DNA of 64,000 bases from Sinorhizobium medicae (GTDB taxonomy: Bacteria; Pseudomonadota; Alphaproteobacteria; Rhizobiales; Rhizobiaceae): assembly GCF_007827695.1 (NCBI RefSeq), contig NZ_VITA01000008.1, positions 124,001-188,000 on the forward strand, written 5' to 3'. Shown piece after piece: positions 352 to 20,703 of this stretch (position 1 is its first letter; each line of letters begins with the position of its first letter). The position numbers were made by a program, and so were the translations under genes. The notes below the pieces were generated by a model, which was not told where the DNA came from, did not search any database, and saw only the letters and a list, made by a program, of their open reading frames with translations.

Positions 352-1523
352 TTCCGCCCCGCTTGAATATAGGTCAAAACGATGTCCGCCGCCTTTTCGC
401 CTGGCGGACGATCCGTCTCCATTCGCTGCTGCACGAGCGCGAACCCGTCGAGCATCGCGCGTCGTTGAGGCGTGTCACAGGAAAGCCGCTCGAACCAGCG
501 CGTCAGGGAGGCCGGCCGTATCATCTTGTTGAAATATTCCGGAACGACCGGAAAATCCGCGATCAGGTTCGGAAGCGCTGCGGTCCAGATCCGGATGCGG
601 GAATGCAGGAGGCTTACGAGCCAGTCGGCAGAATAGGTGGAGACGACGGGAACGCCGGCGAGCGCCAGCTCGAGGATAACCGTACCCGATGCGGCTATGG
701 CCGCGTCGGCTTCGGCGAAAGCCTCCCATTTCCTTTCCGAAGTTACACTGATCGCGGGTTGCACCCTCCAGGAGGCCGTCATCGCCCTCACCCGTTCTTC
801 CTGCCGAGGCACAGTTGGCAGAAGGAAGCGGATGCCTTCGTTCCGATCAGCGAGTTCTTCGACTGTGTCGCGAAAGACAGGCAGCAGGCGGCTGATCTCG
901 CTTCCGCGTGAGCCGGGTAACAGGAGACAGGCGTTCGCCCCGCCCGGTTCCTGCGCCTGTTGCTTCAGCCGCTGGCGCTGCCGTACGGCAAGCACGTTGC
1001 TGTCCAATGCCAGCCTGTGACCGACATAGGTGGTCGGCGGGCCGCCGAGTTTCACCATCACGTCCGGTTCGAACGGCAGAACCGCCAGCACGTGATCCAC
1101 ATAAGCCCGCATGCGCGGCGCCCGTTCCGGCTTCCATGCCCAGACGCTCGGGCAGACATAATCGATCACCGGCAAGTCCGGCAGTGCGGCGCGGACGCGC
1201 TGCGCCACTCGGTGAGTGAAATCGGGGCTGTCGATTATAACCAGAGCATCCGGCCGCGCAGCGGTGATCGCGCTCGCGGTCTGTCGAATCCGCGCCAGGA
1301 GCTTGGGAAGATTTGCCAGGACCTGCGAGAAGCCCATGATCGAGAGTTCGGAATAGTCGAACAACGGCCGAAGCCCTTCGGCCTCGAGTGCCTCGCCGCC
1401 GATACCAACGAGTTCGACGGTACCGTCCGCCCGATCGCGCAGGGCCCGCACGAGGTCGGCGCCGAGCAGGTCGCCGGAAACTTCGCCGGCGATGACCGCC
1501 AGCCTGTAGGCTCTATCGGTCAT
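324..1523 (-). CDS. lpxB: Lipid-A-disaccharide synthase
   Basis: Joins UDP-2,3-diacylglucosamine to lipid X to form the lipid A disaccharide at the inner membrane (GT19 family). The 399-residue protein starts with the family N-terminus (AVIAGEVSGDLLGADL) and carries the conserved YVCPSVWAWKPERA and LLPGSRGSEI blocks and the C-terminal sugar-nucleotide region (SGTVILELALAGVP). Its ATG overlaps the lpxI stop as ATGA (1520-1523), so translation is probably coupled. It is the last gene of the lpxD-fabZ-lpxA-lpxI-lpxB run. The final seven or eight residues are encoded by a palindromic repeat and are not expected to be conserved. Confidence 0.95.
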   Translation of the reverse strand: MTDRAYRLAVIAGEVSGDLLGADLVRALRDRADGTVELVGIGGEALEAEGLRPLFDYSELSIMGFSQVLANLPKLLARIRQTASAITAARPDALVIIDSPDFTHRVAQRVRAALPDLPVIDYVCPSVWAWKPERAPRMRAYVDHVLAVLPFEPDVMVKLGGPPTTYVGHRLALDSNVLAVRQRQRLKQQAQEPGGANACLLLPGSRGSEISRLLPVFRDTVEELADRNEGIRFLLPTVPRQEERVRAMTASWRVQPAISVTSERKWEAFAEADAAIAASGTVILELALAGVPVVSTYSADWLVSLLHSRIRIWTAALPNLIADFPVVPEYFNKMIRPASLTRWFERLSCDTPQRRAMLDGFALVQQRMETDRPPGEKAADIVLTYIQAGRKGSSGQAKG

Positions 1524-2407
1524 TCCCGCTCCCTGCGGAGATTGCGCTCGATACCCAGTACAAACATACCGCTCCTGTCGGCCGCCTCCACAAGGCGTGT
1601 CCGCTCCAGAACCAGCGCGCGCCCCGCCTCGATGGCAATGCCCGCGAGGCCGGCTGCATGCGCTTCTGCAACGGTTGACGGACCGATCGAAGGCAGGTCC
1701 GCCCGCTCGTCCTGTTGCGGTTTGCAGAGCTTCACGAGAACACCGCGGCGGCGGACGGATATTCGCCCGTCTTTCCTGAGGTCGGAAACTCTCGCCAACA
1801 TGGCGTCCGTTCCTTCCGCGCCTTCAAGCGCCACAACCCTGCCGCCGACGGCGACGGCACCCTGGCCGACGTCGAGCGCACCCAGTGCATTTGCCGCGGC
1901 AATGCCTGCCCGGATGTCGCGCTGGTCCTCGTCCGTGGGTGCGTGCCTGCCAAGCGGACCGACATCCGCAAGAAGCCCAGGAACGACTTCGTGCGCACCG
2001 ATCACATGTGCGCCGCTCGCCTCGATCAGCTCGATCACCATGCGCAGGACCGCATCGTCACCACCGGACATCAGGGTGCGGAAAACGCGCGGCACCTTGG
2101 CCAGCGTCTTCAATGTAGGACGAATATCGCGCCACTCCGGACGCCGTCGCACTGCACCCGAAAGGACCACTCGATCGATCTTCTCGGCCTCGAAGGTGTG
2201 GCTGATTGCGGCAAAGTCCCCGATTGCGCAAACCGTATGGTCGAAGCCGGTCCAATCGGCATCGGCCTCCCGCGACAGCGCAATTATGAACGGGTTTTCC
2301 CCCTGACGGCGTGCCGCCTCGGCGACATGATGGGGAAGTGCACCGGCACCGGCAATGATGGCGAGCCTGCCTTTTGACTGCGGCAGGCGATGAATCGCCA
2401 CCGACAT
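1520..2407 (-). CDS. lpxI: UDP-2,3-diacylglucosamine pyrophosphatase, LpxI type
   Basis: Hydrolyses UDP-2,3-diacylglucosamine to lipid X and UMP, the step between LpxD and LpxB. Alphaproteobacteria use LpxI (former DUF1009) instead of LpxH, and no lpxH is seen here. The 295-residue protein opens with GRLAIIAGAGALPHHVAEAA and has the family features SGAVRRRPEW, GAHEVVPGLL and the late RTRLVEAADR segment. The start at 2407 overlaps the lpxA stop as TGATG. A longer reading frame upstream lies inside lpxA and is not used. The protein is followed directly by lpxB. Confidence 0.93.
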   Translation of the reverse strand: MSVAIHRLPQSKGRLAIIAGAGALPHHVAEAARRQGENPFIIALSREADADWTGFDHTVCAIGDFAAISHTFEAEKIDRVVLSGAVRRRPEWRDIRPTLKTLAKVPRVFRTLMSGGDDAVLRMVIELIEASGAHVIGAHEVVPGLLADVGPLGRHAPTDEDQRDIRAGIAAANALGALDVGQGAVAVGGRVVALEGAEGTDAMLARVSDLRKDGRISVRRRGVLVKLCKPQQDERADLPSIGPSTVAEAHAAGLAGIAIEAGRALVLERTRLVEAADRSGMFVLGIERNLRRERE

Positions 2408-3219
2408 CAGCCTTTGGCGCCGCGATTCGGCGACGACAGCGCGCGGTCGCTCTCGGCGGCGATAAAGTCCAGGATCTCTAGAGCCGGTGCGCAATCGAGA
2501 TACTCGTCGCGGATTGCGGCTGCGTTTGCACGGATCGAGCCATCCCCCTCGAAAATCTGCTTGTAGCACCGCCGAACCCGATGAATCGTCGAACGATCGA
2601 ACCCTGCGCGAGTCATCCCGACGACGTTGAGGCCGCTCAAGAGCCCGGGATTGCCGTTGAGCATCCCGTAGGGAATAACGTCATAGCTCACCGCGGACAG
2701 CCCGCCGATGAAGGCCTGCCGGCCGATACGGGTGAACTGGTGAACTGCCGAACCGCCGCCGAGGATGGCGCGGTCCGCAACGGTGACGTGCCCCGCAAGC
2801 ATGACATTGTTGGAGAGGATGATATTGTTTCCGAGGCGGCAATCATGCGCTACGTGCGAGTAGGCAAGGAAAAGATTGTTATCGCCGACAATCGTTGCAC
2901 CGCCATGCTCCACCGTGCCCGTATTCATGGTCACGCCTTCGCGGATGGTACAGTTCTCGCCGATCACCAGCGTGGTATTCAATGCGCTATGGTGCATGCT
3001 CTGCGAATCGCCGCCGATAACCGCTCCCGGAAAGATCTTCGTCCCCTTGCCGACGGTGGTACGGCCGATGACTGTGACGTGGCTCAGAATTTCGACTTCA
3101 TCGGCAAGAACGACATTCGGCCCGATATGGCAGAACGGGCCGATCTTAACGTTTTCGCCGATTACCGCCCCGCCCTCGATCGCCGAGGACGGATGGATCT
3201 TCGCACTTGATGCTATCAT
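2407..3219 (-). CDS. lpxA: UDP-N-acetylglucosamine 3-O-acyltransferase
   Basis: First enzyme of lipid A synthesis, moving a hydroxyacyl chain from acyl carrier protein to UDP-GlcNAc. The 270-residue protein is a left-handed beta-helix: hexapeptide repeats run from residue 5 to about 190 (for example [17 protein letters not shown]), followed by the helical C-terminal domain. SHVAHDC carries the expected catalytic His. It starts two bases after the fabZ stop and ends in a TGATG overlap with lpxI. Confidence 0.96.
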
Positions 3220-3221
3220 TC

Positions 3222-3686
3222 TCAGACGTCTTCCTTGCTGACAATCATCGCGCCGATATCAGCTTCGGCGACGAGTTGCCCGTCAACTTTTGCATCACAG
3301 TGAAACTTCCAGATATTGCCGCGCTGCTTTTGCTTTACGACATGAAATTCTACCCGGTCTCCCGGTACGACGGGCTTGCGGAAGCGGGCGTTGTCGATCG
3401 TCATGAAATATACGAGATTGCTTCCGCCCCCCGTCTTGCGGGCACAGATCGCGCCGGCCGTCTGCGCCATGCCTTCGATCAAAAGGACGCCCGGCATGAT
3501 CGGCTTCTCGGGGAAGTGGCCCGTGAAATGCGGCTCATTGGCCGTCACGTTCTTGATCCCGATGGCCGAATTGTCGCTATCGATCTCGATGATGCGATCC
3601 ACGAGCAAGAAGGGATAACGATGGGGAAGAAGCTTCAGGATTTCCTGTATGTCCGCGGTTCCGAGGACCGTTGCAGCTTCATTCAT
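3222..3686 (-). CDS. fabZ: 3-hydroxyacyl-[acyl-carrier-protein] dehydratase
   Basis: Dehydrates 3-hydroxyacyl-ACP in fatty acid elongation and competes with LpxA and LpxD for hydroxyacyl-ACP. The hot-dog fold signature is present: [13 protein letters not shown], then [23 protein letters not shown] with the catalytic His and Glu. I place the start at ATG 3686 (MNEAATV), with the AAGAAGG Shine-Dalgarno nine bases upstream; a GTG at 3695 is possible but has no spacer. The start overlaps the last eight bases of lpxD, which suggests coupled translation. Confidence 0.95.
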
Positions 3687-4743
3687 CCTTGCCACCCTTC
3701 TTCTTCTGCCTCTCGCTCGACCTCAGCGCCATTTCAGCGACATCGCGGAGAAAGTCGCGCATCGGCCGCGCCGGAATACCGCCGTAGCGTTCGCCGGCCG
3801 GCACATCGCTTGCCACGCCACTCATTGCTGCGATCTGCGCACCACTTCCGATGCTGGTATGCCCGTTGACCCCGACGCCTCCGCCGATCATCACTCCGTC
3901 GCCGATCTGGGCGCTGCCGGCAATGCCGACCTGACTGACGATGCCGCAATAGCGGCCAATGCGCACGTTGTGGCCGATCTGCACGAGATTGTCGATCTTC
4001 GTCCCCTCGCCGATCACCGTGTCGTCCATGGTGCCACGATCGATCGTCGTGTTGGCACCGATCTCAACGTGATCCTGTATGATCACCCGTCCGACCTGGA
4101 CGATTTTGATCATCCCGCCCGTCGGACCAGGCGCATAGCCGAACCCGTCCTGGCCGACGCGCGTTCCAGGGTGAATGATGACGTTGTTGCCGATCAGCGC
4201 GCAAAGAATGCTCACACCCGCGGAGATGGTGCAATCGCGGCCGATCCGCACACCGGGTCCTATCATGGCGCCCGCAGCGATTCGCGTGCCGCTTCCGATT
4301 TCAGCGCCGGCACCGATCACCGCCATCGGCTCGACCTCTACGCCTGCCTCCAGGCGCGCCGTGGAATCGACGAAGGCTCCCGGAGATACGCCTCTCTCAC
4401 TCGTATTATAGGATGGCCGCATGGCCCTTTCATGAAGCAAGGTGCCTGCAAGCGCAAAGGCGGTATGCGGCTTCGCGGTCAATAATACGGGAATGGTATC
4501 GGGAACGAGCGACGATATCGCCTTGTCGCAGATGATCGCAGTGGCGCTGCAGGTCTGCAATTCCTCGCGGCTTTTGCGCGACAGCATGTAACAGACGTCG
4601 CCGGCCTTGGCGCGATAGACCGGCGCGACCGCACGCACTGCGCGGTCGGCGGCGGTAGCATCCAGCAATTCCGCCCCAATCTGATCCGCAAGGTCGCCCA
4701 AACGAATCCCGTCATGGGGCGGGAAAAACCAATTCTTTTCCAT
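3679..4743 (-). CDS. lpxD: UDP-3-O-(3-hydroxyacyl)glucosamine N-acyltransferase
   Basis: Adds the amide-linked hydroxyacyl chain in the third step of lipid A synthesis. The 354-residue protein has an N-terminal uridine-binding domain (about residues 1-100), then hexapeptide repeats, with the catalytic His in [11 protein letters not shown], and a lysine-rich end ([12 protein letters not shown]). Start ATG 4743 (MEKNWFFPP) has GGAG five bases upstream; further upstream in-frame codons run into bamA. It follows bamA by 43 bases with no skp/ompH between them, the arrangement seen in rhizobia. Confidence 0.95.
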
Positions 4744-13888: not shown

Positions 13889-15502
13889 TTAAGGGGCAGC
13901 TATTGCCCACCGCCTGTCGTTCGCTTGATCCGATTGCATGTCGAGGCTCAGACCCCTGCTTCGCAGACCAGCCAGCACCTCAGCGCTCCTATGCTCCGGA
14001 GTATCGCCGATCTCGGCCATGCGCGCATCGAGCTTGGCAAGCAATTCTTCGAAAATTTCCGAATAGGCCGGGTCGTTCGCGCGGTTATGAAGTTCGAATG
14101 GGTCCTTCTCACAATCGAACAGCTCCCACTCCGGAGGTTCAACACCGGAAAAGGCGCCGAGTTGCCCGAGCGGATCGTTATACCAATAGATGAGCTTATA
14201 GCGCGCGTCACGAACGCCGTAATGCGCGAACGCGTTGTGGAACTCGTCCTTGTGCATCCAATATCTGTGATAGGCGAGGCCCGTGTCGCCGTCATCTGCC
14301 GTTCGGTCGAAAATCGGGCGCATGCTCCGTCCCTGCATGTAACTGGGGATCTGCAAGCCGGCATAATCGAGAAAGGTCGGCGCAAAGTCGACATTGGTCG
14401 CGATGTGGCTGGCCTGCACGCCGGCCTCGATGCCTTGCGGATAGCGGATCAGGAAAGGCATCTGCATTGATTCTTCGTACATGAAGCGCTTGTCGAACCA
14501 GCCGTGTTCGCCGAGAAAGAAGCCCTGGTCGGACGTGTAGATGACGATGGTGTCGCCGCGCAGTCCTTCCGCGTCGAGATAGTCGAGCAATCGGCCGACA
14601 TTGTCGTCCACGGCGGCGATGGTCTGCAGATAACGCATCATGTAGCGCTGATATTTGAAAAGAGCCAGCTTCTGCGGATCGGTGAAGAGGTAGTTCTCAC
14701 CTGTCGCCCCGTCGATTAGACGCAACGATCCACCTTCCGCGATATCGGGGACCTTGCGCTGCGTCCAGCCCGGCAGGAGCAGTTCGCCAGTCTCCTCGCC
14801 GCCTTCGGGCTGGACGAGACCGAGGTCCTTATACGTCATGTCGGAGCGGACGCGCATTTTCGCGGCGGCGGCAGCGGCGGCGCGGTTGGAATAGTCGTCG
14901 GAAAATGTTTCCGGAACCGGCAGATTCCCGTCTGCATAAAGTTGTTTGTAGCGTGGATGCGGCTCGAAGCTCCGATGTGGGGCCTTGTGATGGCACATCA
15001 GGAAGAAGGGTCTTCCGATATCGCGCCTGCTGAGAAAATCGAGGCATTTGTCGGTGATGATGTCGGTGGCGTAGCCCTTCTCCATGCGGGAGCCGCTCGG
15101 GTCGATCATCACCGGATCGAAATACTCACCCTGGCCGGGAACCACGGACCATTCATCGAAACCCGAAGGCTCGTGCGCCTTTCCCTCGCCCAGATGCCAC
15201 TTGCCGAAGATCGCCGTCTGATAACCACCGGCGCGCAAGTGCTTGGCGACGTTTGGGAGCCGATTATCGATATGGGTGTCGAGCGTGGTGACCATGTTCA
15301 CATGGTTATAGGTACCGGTCAAAATAGCGGCGCGGCTGGGCGTGCAGATCGAATTGGTGACATAACACCGATCGAGCCGCATCCCCTCATTGGCGATGCG
15401 GTCGATGTTGGGCGTGCTGTTCAGGCCCGAGCCGTAAGCCGATATCGCCCGGGCGGCATGGTCGTCCGACATTATGAACAGAATATTTGGCTGCTTGGTC
15501 AT
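13889..15502 (-). CDS. Sulfatase family protein, cytoplasmic
   Basis: Predicted type I sulfatase hydrolysing a sulfate ester to alcohol and sulfate. In the 537-residue protein the catalytic signature CTPSRAAILTG has Cys53, which would be converted to formylglycine. Metal-site residues appear in SDDHAARA (residues 12-19) and YTSDQGFFLGEHGW. There is no signal peptide, so it should act in the cytoplasm on an imported substrate. It is the last gene of the operon regulator-permease-ATPase-binding protein-sulfatase, 56 bases after the binding protein. The substrate cannot be named from sequence: choline-sulfatase and sugar- or alkyl-sulfatase subgroups are all possible. No formylglycine-generating enzyme gene is in the window. 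Confidence 0.88.
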   Translation of the reverse strand: MTKQPNILFIMSDDHAARAISAYGSGLNSTPNIDRIANEGMRLDRCYVTNSICTPSRAAILTGTYNHVNMVTTLDTHIDNRLPNVAKHLRAGGYQTAIFGKWHLGEGKAHEPSGFDEWSVVPGQGEYFDPVMIDPSGSRMEKGYATDIITDKCLDFLSRRDIGRPFFLMCHHKAPHRSFEPHPRYKQLYADGNLPVPETFSDDYSNRAAAAAAAKMRVRSDMTYKDLGLVQPEGGEETGELLLPGWTQRKVPDIAEGGSLRLIDGATGENYLFTDPQKLALFKYQRYMMRYLQTIAAVDDNVGRLLDYLDAEGLRGDTIVIYTSDQGFFLGEHGWFDKRFMYEESMQMPFLIRYPQGIEAGVQASHIATNVDFAPTFLDYAGLQIPSYMQGRSMRPIFDRTADDGDTGLAYHRYWMHKDEFHNAFAHYGVRDARYKLIYWYNDPLGQLGAFSGVEPPEWELFDCEKDPFELHNRANDPAYSEIFEELLAKLDARMAEIGDTPEHRSAEVLAGLRSRGLSLDMQSDQANDRRWAIAAP

Positions 15503-15558: not shown

Positions 15559-16545
15559 CTAATTGCCCGCGTAAAGGTCGGCGAGATAATAATCCTCCGG
15601 GTCGAGCGGGTCCTGCATCTTGCCGAAAGCAACGAACTGGTCATTGAGTCCCTTCAGCCAGCCGGCCACCGTGCCATCCTTGCTGGCGGCGGCAAGCTCC
15701 TCCGAAGTCAAAAACTTGCCGTTCTCGCTTTCGACTTGAAGCGGTTCTATCGGCACGCCGAGGAATTTGGCGGTGATTTCGACCGAGCGCGGCACGTCGG
15801 CAGCGCGATAGTCGTTGGCCTCCTTCATCGTGGCGACGAACTTTCCGGCCATGTCGATGTCGTCGGTGATCACCTCATTTCGGGCGACGAAGGCCGACGG
15901 GAACGAATTTTCCGGATAGAATTCGTCGCTCTTGGCGACTTCAACCAGATCCGGGACGGTCTTTCTGATAATGCCAACCAGGGGATACCAGATGCCGGCG
16001 CCATCGATCTGCTTCGACGCAAAGGCCGCAACAACGGTCGATGGGTCCATTTTGACCACTTCTATGTCGGAAATCGACATGCCGGCCTTGGCGAGCCCTA
16101 GACGCAAAAGCATGTCACCTGACGTGCCCTCCGGAACGCCGACCTTTTTCCCCTTCAGATCCGCCACCGAGTTGATGCCTTTCTGCGCAATCACACGGTC
16201 GGACAGGCCGAGCGCATTGATCGCGACGAGTTTGGCCTTGCCCATGGCCGGAAGCCAAAGGGCACCGGGACCGACATAGCCGAAATCGAGGCTGCCCGCG
16301 CCCAACGCCTGGATCTGGATCGGGCCGTTGGTGAACACCTTCAAGTCGGGCTCGAGGCCATGTTTGGCCCACAAGTTCTGGTCGGTGGCGATGGCCGTTA
16401 GGCTCGTGCCGAAATAGTCGGCGATGTAACCTATTCTTACGGGCTTGACCTGAGCGTAACCGCGTCGCGTGGCGACACCCAGCATCGGGGTTGCGAGCGC
16501 TCCGGCAGCGGCAGCACCAAGAAAACTGCGTCGGGTAAAAGTCAC
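15559..16545 (-). CDS. ABC transporter substrate-binding protein, sulfonate/nitrate (NMT1/SsuA) type
   Basis: Periplasmic receptor of the importer encoded by the two genes upstream. The N-terminus TRRSFLGAAAAGALATP is a twin-arginine type signal, with cleavage expected near GYAQ. The mature part shows the SsuA/TauA-type fold: RIGYIADYFGTSLTAIA, later GVPEGTSGDMLLRLGL and FASKQIDGAGIW. I choose GTG 16545 over ATG 16560 because AGGAGG lies six bases before the GTG, inside what would otherwise be the first codons. About 328 residues. Neighbouring sulfatase suggests an organosulfate ligand; this is inference. Confidence 0.88.
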   Translation of the reverse strand: MTFTRRSFLGAAAAGALATPMLGVATRRGYAQVKPVRIGYIADYFGTSLTAIATDQNLWAKHGLEPDLKVFTNGPIQIQALGAGSLDFGYVGPGALWLPAMGKAKLVAINALGLSDRVIAQKGINSVADLKGKKVGVPEGTSGDMLLRLGLAKAGMSISDIEVVKMDPSTVVAAFASKQIDGAGIWYPLVGIIRKTVPDLVEVAKSDEFYPENSFPSAFVARNEVITDDIDMAGKFVATMKEANDYRAADVPRSVEITAKFLGVPIEPLQVESENGKFLTSEELAAASKDGTVAGWLKGLNDQFVAFGKMQDPLDPEDYYLADLYAGN

Positions 16546-16567
16546 GGTATTCCTCCTCATCGTGAGC

Positions 16568-17371
16568 TTAGTTTGTCCGGGTATTCTGGTGATAGACGGC
16601 GTGCCAAACCTGATTGCGGATTTCCGCGAATTCAGGCGACAACCGCATTTCCTCCGTGCGCGGATATGGCAGGTTTACGGGGATTATCTTGTGCAAGCGG
16701 CCCGGCCGCGCAGCCATTACTATTACGCGGTTCGCAAGATAGACCGCCTCATCGACATCGTGGGTGATGAAGATCACCGTCCTTCGCTCGCGATTCCAGG
16801 TATCGAGCAACTGGTCCTGCATGTTGACGCGGGTCAATGCATCCAGCGCACCGAACGGTTCGTCCATGAGGAGGATCGTCGGATTGACCGCATAGGCACG
16901 CGCTATGGCGCAACGTTGCTTCATGCCGCCGGACAGCGTCTTGGGCAAAGCATCGGCAAAATCCTTCAACCCCACGAGGCTGATGAAGTGATCGGCGATC
17001 CGCCTGCGCTCGGCTGCCGGCATACGCTTGATGCGCAGGCCGAACTCGACATTCTGGCGAACCGTCAACCAGGGGAAAAGCGCATACTGCTGAAAGATCA
17101 CACCGCGCTCGGGCCCCGGCCCGTCGACCGGCTTGCCATCGACCAAGACGCGGCCATCCGACACGTCGGTCAGGCCGGCTGCAATGTTCATTGCTGTCGA
17201 TTTGCCGCAACCGGATGGCCCCACCACGGTGACGAATTCGCCGTCGCCGACGTCGAGGTTCAGCCGGTCAAGCGCGAGGAACGAGGCCTCGCCCTCGCCG
17301 AACCGGCGAGTCACGTTCTGAAACGAAATCTTCGGGCCAGAGTCCGCGTCCTGAACAGGTTTCTCGATCAT
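16568..17371 (-). CDS. ABC transporter ATP-binding protein, SsuB/TauB type
   Basis: Drives uptake by the importer. The 267-residue protein has Walker [10 protein letters not shown], the ABC signature [14 protein letters not shown], Walker [13 protein letters not shown] and the switch His in [12 protein letters not shown]. The sequence style matches the nitrate/sulfonate/taurine importer family. ATG 17371 overlaps the permease stop as ATGA and has AGGAG eight bases upstream; a TTG at 17389 is rejected. It lies between permease and binding-protein genes. Confidence 0.92.
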
Positions 17372-18171
17372 CGGGCACGCTCCTGCCAACGGGTTAGACG
17401 CCGCTCCGTCGCCTGAACAATGCGGTCCATGAGGAGGCCGAGAATGCCGATGGTGACGAGACTGACGAAGATGGTGGGAAGATCGTAATAGAGCTGGGCC
17501 TGTTGCATCCGGAAACCAAGACCGGATTGCGCGGCGATGAGTTCGGCTGCGACGACCGTTGCCCAGGCCGAGCCGAGCCCGATCCGGACGCCGACCAGAA
17601 TGAAGGGTATTGAAGCCGGGATGATCACGCGATGAAAAAGAACTCCGTCATTGGCACCGAGCACGCGCGCCGCACTGATCAGCGTGCGGTCCACGCTGAT
17701 GACGCCCTGATACGTGGCCACGACACAAGAGAGAAACGAGGCGAGAAAGATGACGAAGACCTTCGGCGCTTCGTCGATACCCATGGTTACGATAGCGAGC
17801 GGAATGATCGCCAAGGGCGGGACCATACGGAAGAACTGGATGTAAGGCTCGATCAGTGCGCGGACGGGGCCATACCAGCCCATCAGGAAACCGACGGGGA
17901 TGGCCGCTGCTACGCCAAGCAGAAAGCCGGTCAGCACACGGCGGAGACTGGAGGCGATGTCCAGCGGCAGCTGCCCACTTGCGATCAGCTCTATTGCGCG
18001 CTGGAAGACCTCGGCCGGTCCGGGAAGAACGACCAGCTTGGCCGCTGTGATACCCCACCAAAATCCGATGGCCAACGTGAAAGCGATCAAGTTCAAGGCA
18101 ATGGGAGCCAGGTTTGCCGATGAAAGCCGCTTCGCAGCGATATCCTCGTCTTTTGTCGTCAGGGTACTCAA
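17368..18171 (-). CDS. ABC transporter permease, SsuC/TauC type
   Basis: Inner-membrane channel of the importer. The 267-residue protein has about six membrane helices and the cytoplasmic EAA-like loop around [27 protein letters not shown], characteristic of the SsuC/TauC group. The start is TTG at 18171, overlapping the regulator stop as TTGA, with AGGAG seven bases upstream. The short overlap on both sides (TTGA with the regulator, ATGA with the ATPase) indicates one transcript with translational coupling. Confidence 0.91.
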
Positions 18172-19283
18172 AGGCGGGCTCCTGAATAGAAAAAGTGATC
18201 CAAGGCGACCGCAGCACCGCCGATCGGGCCCGACTGCGACCCAAAGCTGGTCCGCTCAAGGCGCAGTATCTCGCGCATGTGCGGCATGACGCGTGGCGGC
18301 AGGTGTTCCCGCAGGTGCGAGAAAAGGCTATCCGGCGCGTCGCCGAGATGGCCGCCGAAGACGATCAGATCGGGCGTCAGGAGACTGATCGCGATGGCGA
18401 GTGAGTCAGTCAGGCGCGCCAGTGTCGGTTTCCAGGATGCCGTGCGTTCCAACTGCATCAGCAGATCGGCCGGTGCGGACCCCTCCGACCCAAGAGAGCG
18501 CATCAGAACGCGCTCGTTCACATAGCTCTCAAGGCAGCCATGGTTGCCGCAACTGCACAGCGGCCCGTCTTGCGATATCTGGATGTGACCGAGTTCGACC
18601 GCACCATGTCCGCCTGGTCGGAACGGCATTCCATCGACGACCAGCCCTGCCCCGAGACCAGAGCGCAGATAGACGAACAGCACCGCCGCAACATTGCGCC
18701 CGAGCCCAAAGCGCGCTTCGGCAACTGCCATTGCACTTACGTTATGCTCAAGCACCACGGAAAGGCCCGTTCGCCGTTCCAGCATGCCGGCCAGCGGCAG
18801 ATTGCGCCAACCGGTATTGATCGACGCCAGGATGGATCGTTGGCCGGCATCGACCGGCCCCGGCACGCCCACTCCGACGCCGAGCAGATCTTCGACGCCG
18901 CTGACGGCCTTCAGCCTTTCAATTTCGTCGGCGATCCGGGTGGTCAAGGCTTCTGGCGATGTGTTCGGAAGGCCGTACTCGAATGAAGCTGCGGCCTTTG
19001 GCGAGCCCAGGAGATTTGTGACCGTTAACTGCACGAGCCCGGCGCCGATATGCACGCCGGCGACATGATGAGCATCGGGCAAGAGTCGGATCGCCAAGGC
19101 GGGTCGGCCGAGCCCACCACTAGCCCCAGGTTCCTCCTCGACAACAGAACCGTCCGCGAGAAGCTGCGCCGTGACATGAGTCAGAGTCGTCGCGGACAAT
19201 TTGCTCCGGCGCGCGAGGATAGCTCTCGAGTTGGGGCCCTCGTCGCGCAGAATGCGCAGAACCTGGCCGTGATGCAGACCCAC
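18168..19283 (-). CDS. ROK-family transcriptional regulator
   Basis: Probable repressor of its own operon. The 371-residue protein has an N-terminal winged helix-turn-helix (about residues 5-55, [23 protein letters not shown]) and a ROK sugar-kinase-like effector domain with [11 protein letters not shown] and the zinc motif [10 protein letters not shown]. NagC, Mlc and XylR belong to this family and bind palindromic AT-rich operators; effectors are usually sugars or sugar derivatives. The start is GTG 19283. A perfect palindrome lies 27-53 bases upstream. A ROK regulator in front of a sulfonate-type importer and a sulfatase hints at a sulfated sugar, but the ligand is unknown. Confidence 0.9.
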
Positions 19284-19309
19284 CTGTAGTCGTTCCCCTT
19301 CGTCTCATA

Positions 19310-19336
19310 TTTATTTTCTAAACTTTAGAAAATAAA
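19310..19336. promoter_or_regulatory. Perfect 27-bp palindromic operator for the ROK regulator
   Basis: TTTATTTTCTAAA (19310-19322) and TTTAGAAAATAAA (19324-19336) are exact reverse complements around a single C at 19323. Its AT content stands out in this GC-rich sequence. It resembles ROK-family operators such as the NagC/Mlc sites with TTATTT half-sites. It overlaps the -10 of the promoter described separately, the arrangement expected for autorepression. Confidence 0.75.
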
Positions 19337-19350
19337 TCGGAAGATGTCAA
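19322..19350 (-). promoter_or_regulatory. Sigma-70 promoter of the ROK-ABC-sulfatase operon
   Basis: On the minus strand TTGACA (19350-19345), a 17-base spacer, and TAAAGT (19327-19322). The -35 is a perfect consensus match and the -10 sits at the centre of the palindrome at 19310-19336. Transcription would start near 19315, giving a leader of about 30 bases before the GTG at 19283. Confidence 0.65.
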
Positions 19351-19884
19351 TTTGCGATCGCAGAGGGTTCATGCGTCGGCTCCGGATGGCGGCAGGTTTC
19401 CTGAGGCTGGGGTCACAAAGGCTATCACTCTTTGGCCCGTCGGCTTGAAGGCACATTCCATCGATAGAGCCAAGCTCTCGCAAGGGAGTCACGAGCTGCT
19501 GGCGCGGCTATGTGGCGTCGTGGAGCATAGATGACGGAAGGCTTCGCATTCCGGCTGATTGGTTCTCGGGAGAATTGATTGTCGGCGTTGGTGAAGGCTC
19601 ACGCGGCATGCTGCACGGTTATGGCCATTTCGAAAGCTATAAGATATTCATGATCGATAGGTGCCCGATACAATTCGAGCGCGACCAGAATGAGCACCCC
19701 CTGCAAATGCCACCCCGAAGCTGAGACGGGTCGGATCAACGGCGGCCGCGAGGCCGCACTTAAGTTGCCATGCTGACCGGCGTCACCCCACTATCCGTCC
19801 ACAACATGGCGTCAGCCCTGGAACACAAATTTACCGATCCCGGAGCCGCCACCTAGGTTCGCAGCCTCGCGCGTTCGCCGGCGT
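19351..19884. other. Gene-poor gap between the ROK operon and eipB
   Basis: About 530 bases with no supportable gene. Short plus-strand frames at 19352-19534 and 19512-19724 show no recognisable motif and no ribosome site. The sequence has a lower GC stretch around 19630-19680 and one small hairpin GCGGCC-GCGA-GGCCGC (19742-19757). It could hold a degraded gene, a small RNA, or simply the terminator region of eipB; nothing in it decides the matter. Confidence 0.4.
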
Positions 19885-20703
19885 TTACTTGCACTCTGCG
19901 GTGTCGAAGACCTCGAGCTCGGCGAGTTTGCCACTCAGGGCGAAGTCTCCGTAATCCATGGTAAGGTCGCGCGTCACGCCGTTTTCATAGAGTTTGAAGG
20001 ACATGCGATATACAGGCAGGGCATCACCGCTCGCTTCGTCGGTGAAATAGGCGATCGTCACGGGCCAATAGCTCTCTTCCCCGAGCTTGCCGGCCTTGCC
20101 GACATCAACGTCGCCGGGCGCCGGTTTGCGCGGCTTGCCGACGAAGGTCGACGTAATCAGCGTCTTGTCGCCGGAATCGGAACCATCGAAGATGCGCGCC
20201 TCGAAAAACGTCTCCCCCTTTTTTGCCCGTTCGATCACCTCCAGCATATGCTCGGTCGGAAAACGGCTTGCCGCAAGTGCCACCTGACGCTTGTCGGGCG
20301 CGGTCAGTTCGACTTTGACGCCCGATTTTTCGTCATGCGCGCTGCCGCGTACTTCCTTGTCCAGCTTCTCATCGGTGAATGATCGGGTGAGGAAACGGAA
20401 ATTTCCGTTCTTCATGTCCTCGTAGGTGGTGGTCTGCTGATCGGTAAGGCGAACTTCGTCGCCCGTATCGACCTGGGTGACGAAGCGGAAGCTGACGGTG
20501 TAGCCCTCGCAGGCGGAGCCGTTGAACTCATAGACCATGCGCCCATACATTCCGGAGATGCCGGAGCGCTCGGAGGCGTCCTTCAATTCCAGATCGTAGA
20601 CCGCGCGATGGGGAACGAGCGCACTGGCCTGTGCGGCGCCCGCCGTCATGACGACGACACAGACACTTCCCAGAGTGACAAGACCGAAGCCTTTACGAAA
20701 CAT
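19885..20703 (-). CDS. eipB: Cell envelope integrity protein EipB (DUF1849)
   Basis: Periplasmic beta-spiral protein known from Brucella, where it supports envelope integrity. The 272-residue precursor has a signal peptide (about residues 1-26, ending GAAQA) and then ALVPHRAVYDLEL, the start of the DUF1849 domain. Two Cys remain in the mature protein, Cys65 (GSACEGY) and Cys271 (penultimate, AECK), matching the conserved disulfide reported in the family. AGGAGG lies upstream of the ATG. It is transcribed away from ridA. Confidence 0.87.
   Translation of the reverse strand: MFRKGFGLVTLGSVCVVVMTAGAAQASALVPHRAVYDLELKDASERSGISGMYGRMVYEFNGSACEGYTVSFRFVTQVDTGDEVRLTDQQTTTYEDMKNGNFRFLTRSFTDEKLDKEVRGSAHDEKSGVKVELTAPDKRQVALAASRFPTEHMLEVIERAKKGETFFEARIFDGSDSGDKTLITSTFVGKPRKPAPGDVDVGKAGKLGEESYWPVTIAYFTDEASGDALPVYRMSFKLYENGVTRDLTMDYGDFALSGKLAELEVFDTAECK

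Follow-up and report, generated by a model that had tools for sequence, protein, structure and literature searches.

The window, by which we mean the whole 64,000-nucleotide stretch of Sinorhizobium medicae DNA that was analysed, contains five minus-strand genes in the order regulator, permease, ATPase, binding protein and sulfatase, which overlap or lie at most 56 bases apart (taking mechanical ORF ends). The regulator is a member of the ROK family, and the promoter in front of it is covered by a long palindrome. The features of the locus are as follows.

13889..15502, minus strand: sulfatase with the motif CTPSR, best solved relative the GlcNAc-6-sulfatase 5g2v
15559..16560, minus strand: SsuA-family periplasmic binding protein, clearing the cut-off of TIGR01728 (235.7 bits against 163.5)
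16568..17389, minus strand: SsuB/TauB/NrtD-like ABC ATPase, from profile matches
17368..18171, minus strand: SsuC/TauC-like ABC permease, from profile matches
18168..19283, minus strand: ROK-family transcriptional regulator with a GTG start, predicted autorepressor (PF00480 and matches to Mlc structures)
19309..19337, minus strand: perfect 29-bp palindrome, predicted ROK operator, from a dyad scan and a dyad with the same core at the orthologous loci
19322..19327, minus strand: -10 hexamer TAAAGT, a promoter match that spans the palindrome centre
19345..19350, minus strand: -35 hexamer TTGACA, a promoter match, with TTGAC 15-19 nt upstream of the -10 in all 15 rows examined

The regulator, the importer and the sulfatase

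The regulator carries the C-terminal ROK domain (PF00480, E=1.3e-45, residues 75-362), and its best solved relatives are 3bp8 (2.1e-39) and 1z6r, which is E. coli Mlc (1.8e-38), with residues 5-369 aligned; 3bp8 is named as a putative NagC-like regulator, and we take it to be E. coli Mlc as well. No separate Pfam HTH match was found in the protein at E 0.001; its N-terminal winged HTH and GRP linker are seen in the alignment to Mlc, which runs from residue 5 and has GRPA in common. The zinc motif of ROK repressors reads CxCGxxGCxE and is joined by ExGH, and in the structure-relative alignment the zinc motif and ELGH of the window regulator are similar in kind to those of Mlc. Moreover, residues E230, G232, H233, C243, C245, G246, G249, C250 and E252 are unchanged in 17/17 regulators. 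At what is presumably the place where ROK kinases have their catalytic aspartate, the window regulator has EHN where Mlc reads QHD. By its domain, its HTH and linker, its zinc motif and the AT-rich, promoter-overlapping palindrome that is its predicted operator, the protein bears the sequence marks of a ROK repressor of the NagC/Mlc/XylR group. The similarity to E. coli Mlc is nearly full-length, HTH, GRPA linker and zinc motif included. Orthology to Mlc or to NagC was however rejected, the regulator falling far below both NCBIfam cut-offs (163.6 against 530 for Mlc and 147 against 650 for NagC).

For none of the permease or ATPase models listed (for the ATPase, 25 of 185), the SsuB and SsuC equivalogs included, does the score reach the cut-off: the permease scores 128.8 with the SsuC model, against a cut-off of 347, and the ATPase 185.7 with the aliphatic sulfonates model, against 395. 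Since both proteins stay below these cut-offs, their matches do not fix the substrate class of the importer. The sulfatase has the CxPSR motif, as CTPSR, and matches 5g2v at E=1.2e-124; the mucin-desulfating sulfatase 7p24 (2.3e-109) and the exo-L-galactose-6-sulfatase 7lha (1.3e-106) come next and score close behind, so that the sugar is not fixed either. The stretches WFDKR and HYG, which presumably hold the sulfatase triad, are common to the window sulfatase and to 5g2v, which we take to be BT4656. The substrate triad of S1_11 is described as His and Asp/Arg, about half of S1_11 being without the N-acetyl pocket, and the triad is described as able to serve L-galactose also (PMC10154612). 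The sulfatase domain begins at residue 5, and a signal peptide on this enzyme is therefore unlikely, as read from the sequence, while the N-terminus of the binding protein is an apparent Tat-type signal. The simplest reading of the operon is that a small sulfate ester would be imported and then desulfated in the cytoplasm.

The palindrome and its promoter

The sequence-only reading described a perfect 27-bp palindrome with 13-base arms. We find it as TTTATTTTCTAAA-C-TTTAGAAAATAAA at 19310-19336, and a further matching pair at each end brings its true extent to a perfect 29-bp dyad at 19309-19337, with 14-base arms around a single central C (plus strand). When dyads with loops of 0-8 are compared, this is the longest in the window. 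Perfect dyads with 13-base arms and a loop of 0-1 are expected 0.0034 times per 64 kb at the composition of the window, and 0.043 times if the composition of 19300-19345 itself is used; the longest arm met in 60 first-order Markov simulations (loop 0-1) was 13, and it was met once. The 29-bp palindrome is real and far above chance. Its predicted half-site is TTATTTTCT, and 7 bases separate the two half-sites. The second-longest dyad of the window, CGTCATCCTCGGGCTTGACCCGAGGATGACG at 172-202, has 13-base arms and a 5-base loop, and is perhaps a dispersed repeat or a terminator.

The same reading placed a -10 TAAAGT at the centre of the palindrome and a TTGACA 17 bases upstream of it, and both are present on the minus strand, where TTGACA-N17-TAAAGT (19350-19345 and 19327-19322) has 10/12 consensus bases. 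The dyad centre, at 19323, falls within the -10, and the dyad covers the promoter spacer together with the -10. Two promoter-like matches occur in 18900-19900, the other one on the plus strand, as compared with a mean of 0.4 in shuffles, and the first gene downstream of the minus-strand promoter is that of the ROK regulator.

A dyad of this length could also be imagined to act in RNA, as a hairpin, terminator or attenuator, and the strand can indeed form a 13-pair hairpin (-11.2 kcal/mol for a 62-nt stretch). However, the z-score of this hairpin is only -1.54, with 19 of 200 shuffles folding equally well, no terminator-like match was found at the dyad, and transcripts from this promoter would lack the left arm, which falls within the spacer. 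We reject the terminator or RNA hairpin on its position and on the weak z-score, and consider it hardly credible. It is as a DNA site that we follow the palindrome in what comes below.

Conservation with the regulator and one site per genome

A scan of named genomes gave at least 80 loci, seven of them close to the window's (L004-L010, about 65-79% identical) and the other 73 at most 41% identical. Searching 394 family genomes and 33 genus genomes gave at least 11 further loci besides the window's own (L120-L130); the family search scored the first five candidates per genome, so that the count of orthologues is a lower bound. Two of L120-L130 have the same promoter stretches as named loci, and 17 distinct rows remain, the window included. 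In all 17 of these distinct regulator loci (52-100% identical) a dyad with the same core, imperfect in some, lies over the -10. Conservation upstream of orthologous operons was the check that the sequence-only reading had proposed for its palindrome, and it holds throughout, with fewer than 12 of the 14 pairs in four loci. At least 12 pairs are kept in the other 13, as against 25 of 4000 random stretches, a null taken from six operator-bearing loci, which slightly inflates its upper tail. The four weaker dyads are those of L129 (11/14 pairs), of L007 and L127 (10/14), and of L004 (9/14, its right arm being shifted); since 9 pairs are also reached by 813 of the 4000 random stretches, L004 alone proves nothing.

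When 15 rows are anchored on the dyad centre, arm positions 1-12 on each side carry a mean of 1.75 bits per position, and the flanks carry 0.40 bits at -20 to -14 and 0.18 bits at -55 to -30. The core owes part of its conservation to the -10. The dyad arm that lies in the spacer is no promoter element, and its conservation therefore needs another cause. Differing complementary pairs are found between loci at positions 9 and 13 (at 9 these are T/A, A/T and C/G), though only 10/17 loci are symmetric at position 9.

The regulator and the three importer genes stand together in 16/17 loci, and the window-type sulfatase in 12/17. In four of the 17 a different PF00884 sulfatase occupies the sulfatase slot beside the same regulator and importer genes (L125 3196-4686, L126 4708-6213, L127 4626-6143 and L128 3125-4633; that of L126 is 23% identical to the window's). 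At E 1e-30 the window-type sulfatase is absent from the genomes of these four loci, and from the genome matching L007. The locus L007 (6001-7449; the same promoter is found in L123) has lost the importer and has only a scrap of the sulfatase, of 71 residues (444-514), with regulator and operator kept: it is a decaying operon. Within the genus the regulator is found at 85% identity or more in only 4/33 genomes, and in three other regulator-bearing genus genomes the operon lies next to rpsB-tsf, as it does in the window; regulator and operon form a patchy module within the genus. In L004 the region upstream of the operon (1317-3770) contains another sulfatase gene as well as a gene like that of the formylglycine-generating enzyme.

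The sequence-only reading offered the palindrome as a query for further regulon members, and our searches gave none. With as many as 3 mismatches allowed, the 27-mer has no second site in 6.53 Mb of the window's own genome, and relaxed 25-mers find only the operon site there. The relaxed 25-mer, again at up to 3 mismatches, has exactly one site in each of 12 regulator-bearing genomes, by the regulator start and at 0-1 mismatch, its reversed control matching in 2 of the 12. Across the family, 3/297 genomes contain the 27-mer when up to 3 mismatches are allowed (control 0), and all three matches are this operon. The 25-mer patterns and the consensus were drawn from the orthologues, so that matches there are to be expected, but nothing in this choice forces uniqueness or absence elsewhere. 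In congeners that lack the regulator (21 of 29 such) there are two matches, both at 3 mismatches, and the control matched 2 genomes too. Other ROK loci agree with the consensus at no more than 19 of 27 positions (73 loci, within about 330 bases upstream), or 18 for 16 loci of the same genus, as compared with 24-27 in orthologues. The exact core TTTCTAANNNTTAGAAA occurs in 7/397 order genomes, the window's own included, and 7 is likewise the count for its reversed control. An equally large draw from the order gave the regulator at E 1e-70 in two genomes only, the window's own and G663, the latter not being among the six other core-bearing genomes; we therefore take those six as background. Taken together, the searches point to the palindrome as a local switch of one operon.

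The same counts bear on who binds the site. Suppose that the palindrome were bound by a regulator encoded elsewhere, and not by the ROK protein: the site is nevertheless found with the ROK gene in all 12 genomes that have the gene, and at 0-1 mismatch in none of the 21 congeners without it, and its layout resembles that of ROK operators as described in PMC4856308, PMC2580772 and PMC9104551. We regard an outside regulator as very improbable, and assume the ROK protein in what follows.

With one site per genome, tied to its regulator, the system would make a clean case for following changes of helix and operator in the ROK family, and the rows suggest that the two partly change together. In L127 and L128, left position 5 is A and not C and right position 1 is A and not T, and these are the rows with the recognition helix SPTALT, the others having S(A/P)TT(L/M)T. 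L129, on the other hand, combines the helix of the window with a G at right position 3 of its operator; a helix is also common to L004 and L010, whose inner operator positions differ. A more distant example comes from another family, where in G663 (locus L143) a 40%-identical regulator, with SAPALTKIASSQL as its helix, stands at the head of the same five genes (identity to the window 65% for the permease, 77% for the ATPase, 56% for the binding protein and 69% for the sulfatase). The palindrome there is different, ATTAATTAA-TCAAG-TTAATTAAT; it was chosen by eye, the best odd register of the scan there being 10/12. Its centre lies 44 bases before the GTG and 28 bases after TTGACA, compared with dyad centres 25-29 bases after TTGAC in the orthologues. 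At E 1e-70, and the window's own genome apart, no such regulator was found in 385 class genomes.

Probable repression, a putative ligand and other ROK systems

We consider it very likely that the palindrome is the operator by which the ROK repressor shuts off its own importer-sulfatase operon, and that a ligand relieves this repression. The sequence-only reading took the layout to be that of autorepression, and the comparative evidence supports it, since the dyad lies on the -10 in all 17 loci and the site tracks the regulator. A ROK dimer would sit on the spacer and the -10, with one recognition helix in each TTATTTTCT half-site, and RNA polymerase would be excluded from a -10 covered in this way. 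The regulator's own gene and the genes of the SsuCBA-type importer and the sulfatase would then be repressed together, until binding of a ligand at the ROK domain released the repressor and turned the operon on. This ligand is probably the imported sulfate ester or what desulfation makes of it, and might be a sugar. Binding by the ROK protein, repression, the ligand and the direction of the response are what we infer here; the imperfect symmetry in relatives speaks against this reading, as do the rows in which helix and operator fail to change in step.

How would the picture change if the regulator were an activator? Some ROK-type proteins do activate, among them SsuR and CysR of C. glutamicum, ROK-type regulators that control sulfonate and sulfur assimilation genes (PMC2580772). 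The window operon is of the same metabolic kind, and the dyad might accordingly be an operator at which the regulator activates, or acts dually on sulfur status, in the manner of these two. However, the window site lies on the spacer and the -10, whereas the four CysR-activated promoters described in PMC2580772 have the site 3 bp upstream of the -35, and the window promoter is by itself already close to consensus. We consider this improbable. As ROK-type proteins serving sulfur metabolism, SsuR and CysR may still be distant precedents, likened by description, for an Mlc-like regulator on an organosulfate operon; they differ from our predicted repressor in being activators or dual regulators, mainly the former, with activating sites upstream of the -35 and with 10-bp inverted repeats (PMC2580772).

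As an operator for repression, the palindrome would be nothing out of the ordinary, ROK repressors with palindromic promoter operators being well known, and inverted repeats of T-rich and A-rich arms are described as typical of the family (PMC4856308, PMC2580772). XylR, a ROK repressor of Bacillus and Paenibacillus, likewise has a 9-N7-9 palindromic operator, ACTTAGTTT-N7-AGACAAAGT, placed in the promoter of its target genes (PMC9104551), but the half-site letters are others, and the xylose genes run away from xylR, whereas here there is one co-directional operon. NagR of Bifidobacterium is also a ROK repressor with palindromic operators over promoter elements, 10 of its 11 predicted operators overlapping a -10 or -35 and a knock-out supporting repression; it differs in that these 11 operators belong to milk-oligosaccharide genes, with GlcNAc and its phosphates as plausible ligands (PMC9599254).

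Pairs of the type TTTATTT...GAAAATAA are frequent upstream of Mlc-like genes as well, a count made without a null comparison. With one mismatch allowed per hexamer, and again without a null, the pair TTATTT/AAATAA is found in 62 of the 73 more distant loci, with a 10-base gap in 37 and an 11-base gap in 14; the gap is thus 10 or 11 in 51 of these 62, and 13 in the window. In L014-L083, which are mostly enterobacterial, a pair like TTTATTTCGAAGCGCGAAAATAA is common, and in most cases it sits 87-92 nt ahead of the aligned Mlc-like gene start. Mlc and NagC each act on several targets, whereas the window regulator appears to have one operon.

What seems unusual is that an Mlc-like regulator should head an organosulfate importer-sulfatase operon. 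We found no published description of this rhizobial ROK regulator or operon in our searches of the open-licence literature, which does not imply its absence from print; the rhizobial network papers PMC11387232 and PMC9611204 may contain a prediction of it. The predicted operator is a sharp one for a rhizobial ROK regulator, and it links a family of sugar sensors to the scavenging of organosulfates. Substrate and ligand are the main points of interest, and the regulator offers a handle for finding the substrate of the operon. As a tentative speculation, rather doubtful in its full form, one may picture a ROK switch with a single target that responds to a sulfated sugar or amino sugar, or to the desulfated product, and that controls an SsuABC-type importer and a cytoplasmic GlcNAc-6-sulfatase-like enzyme, the sulfatase gene being exchangeable and the rest constant. 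If true, this would mean that sulfonate-type transporters import sugar sulfates, and that the sulfatase can be swapped while regulator, operator and importer stay.

On the other side of the promoter, a stretch of the window of about 545 bases (19340-19884) that contains no ORF of 80 codons reaches from the promoter to an EipB-like gene, compared with about 107 bases between EipB and the regulator in L120 and L130.
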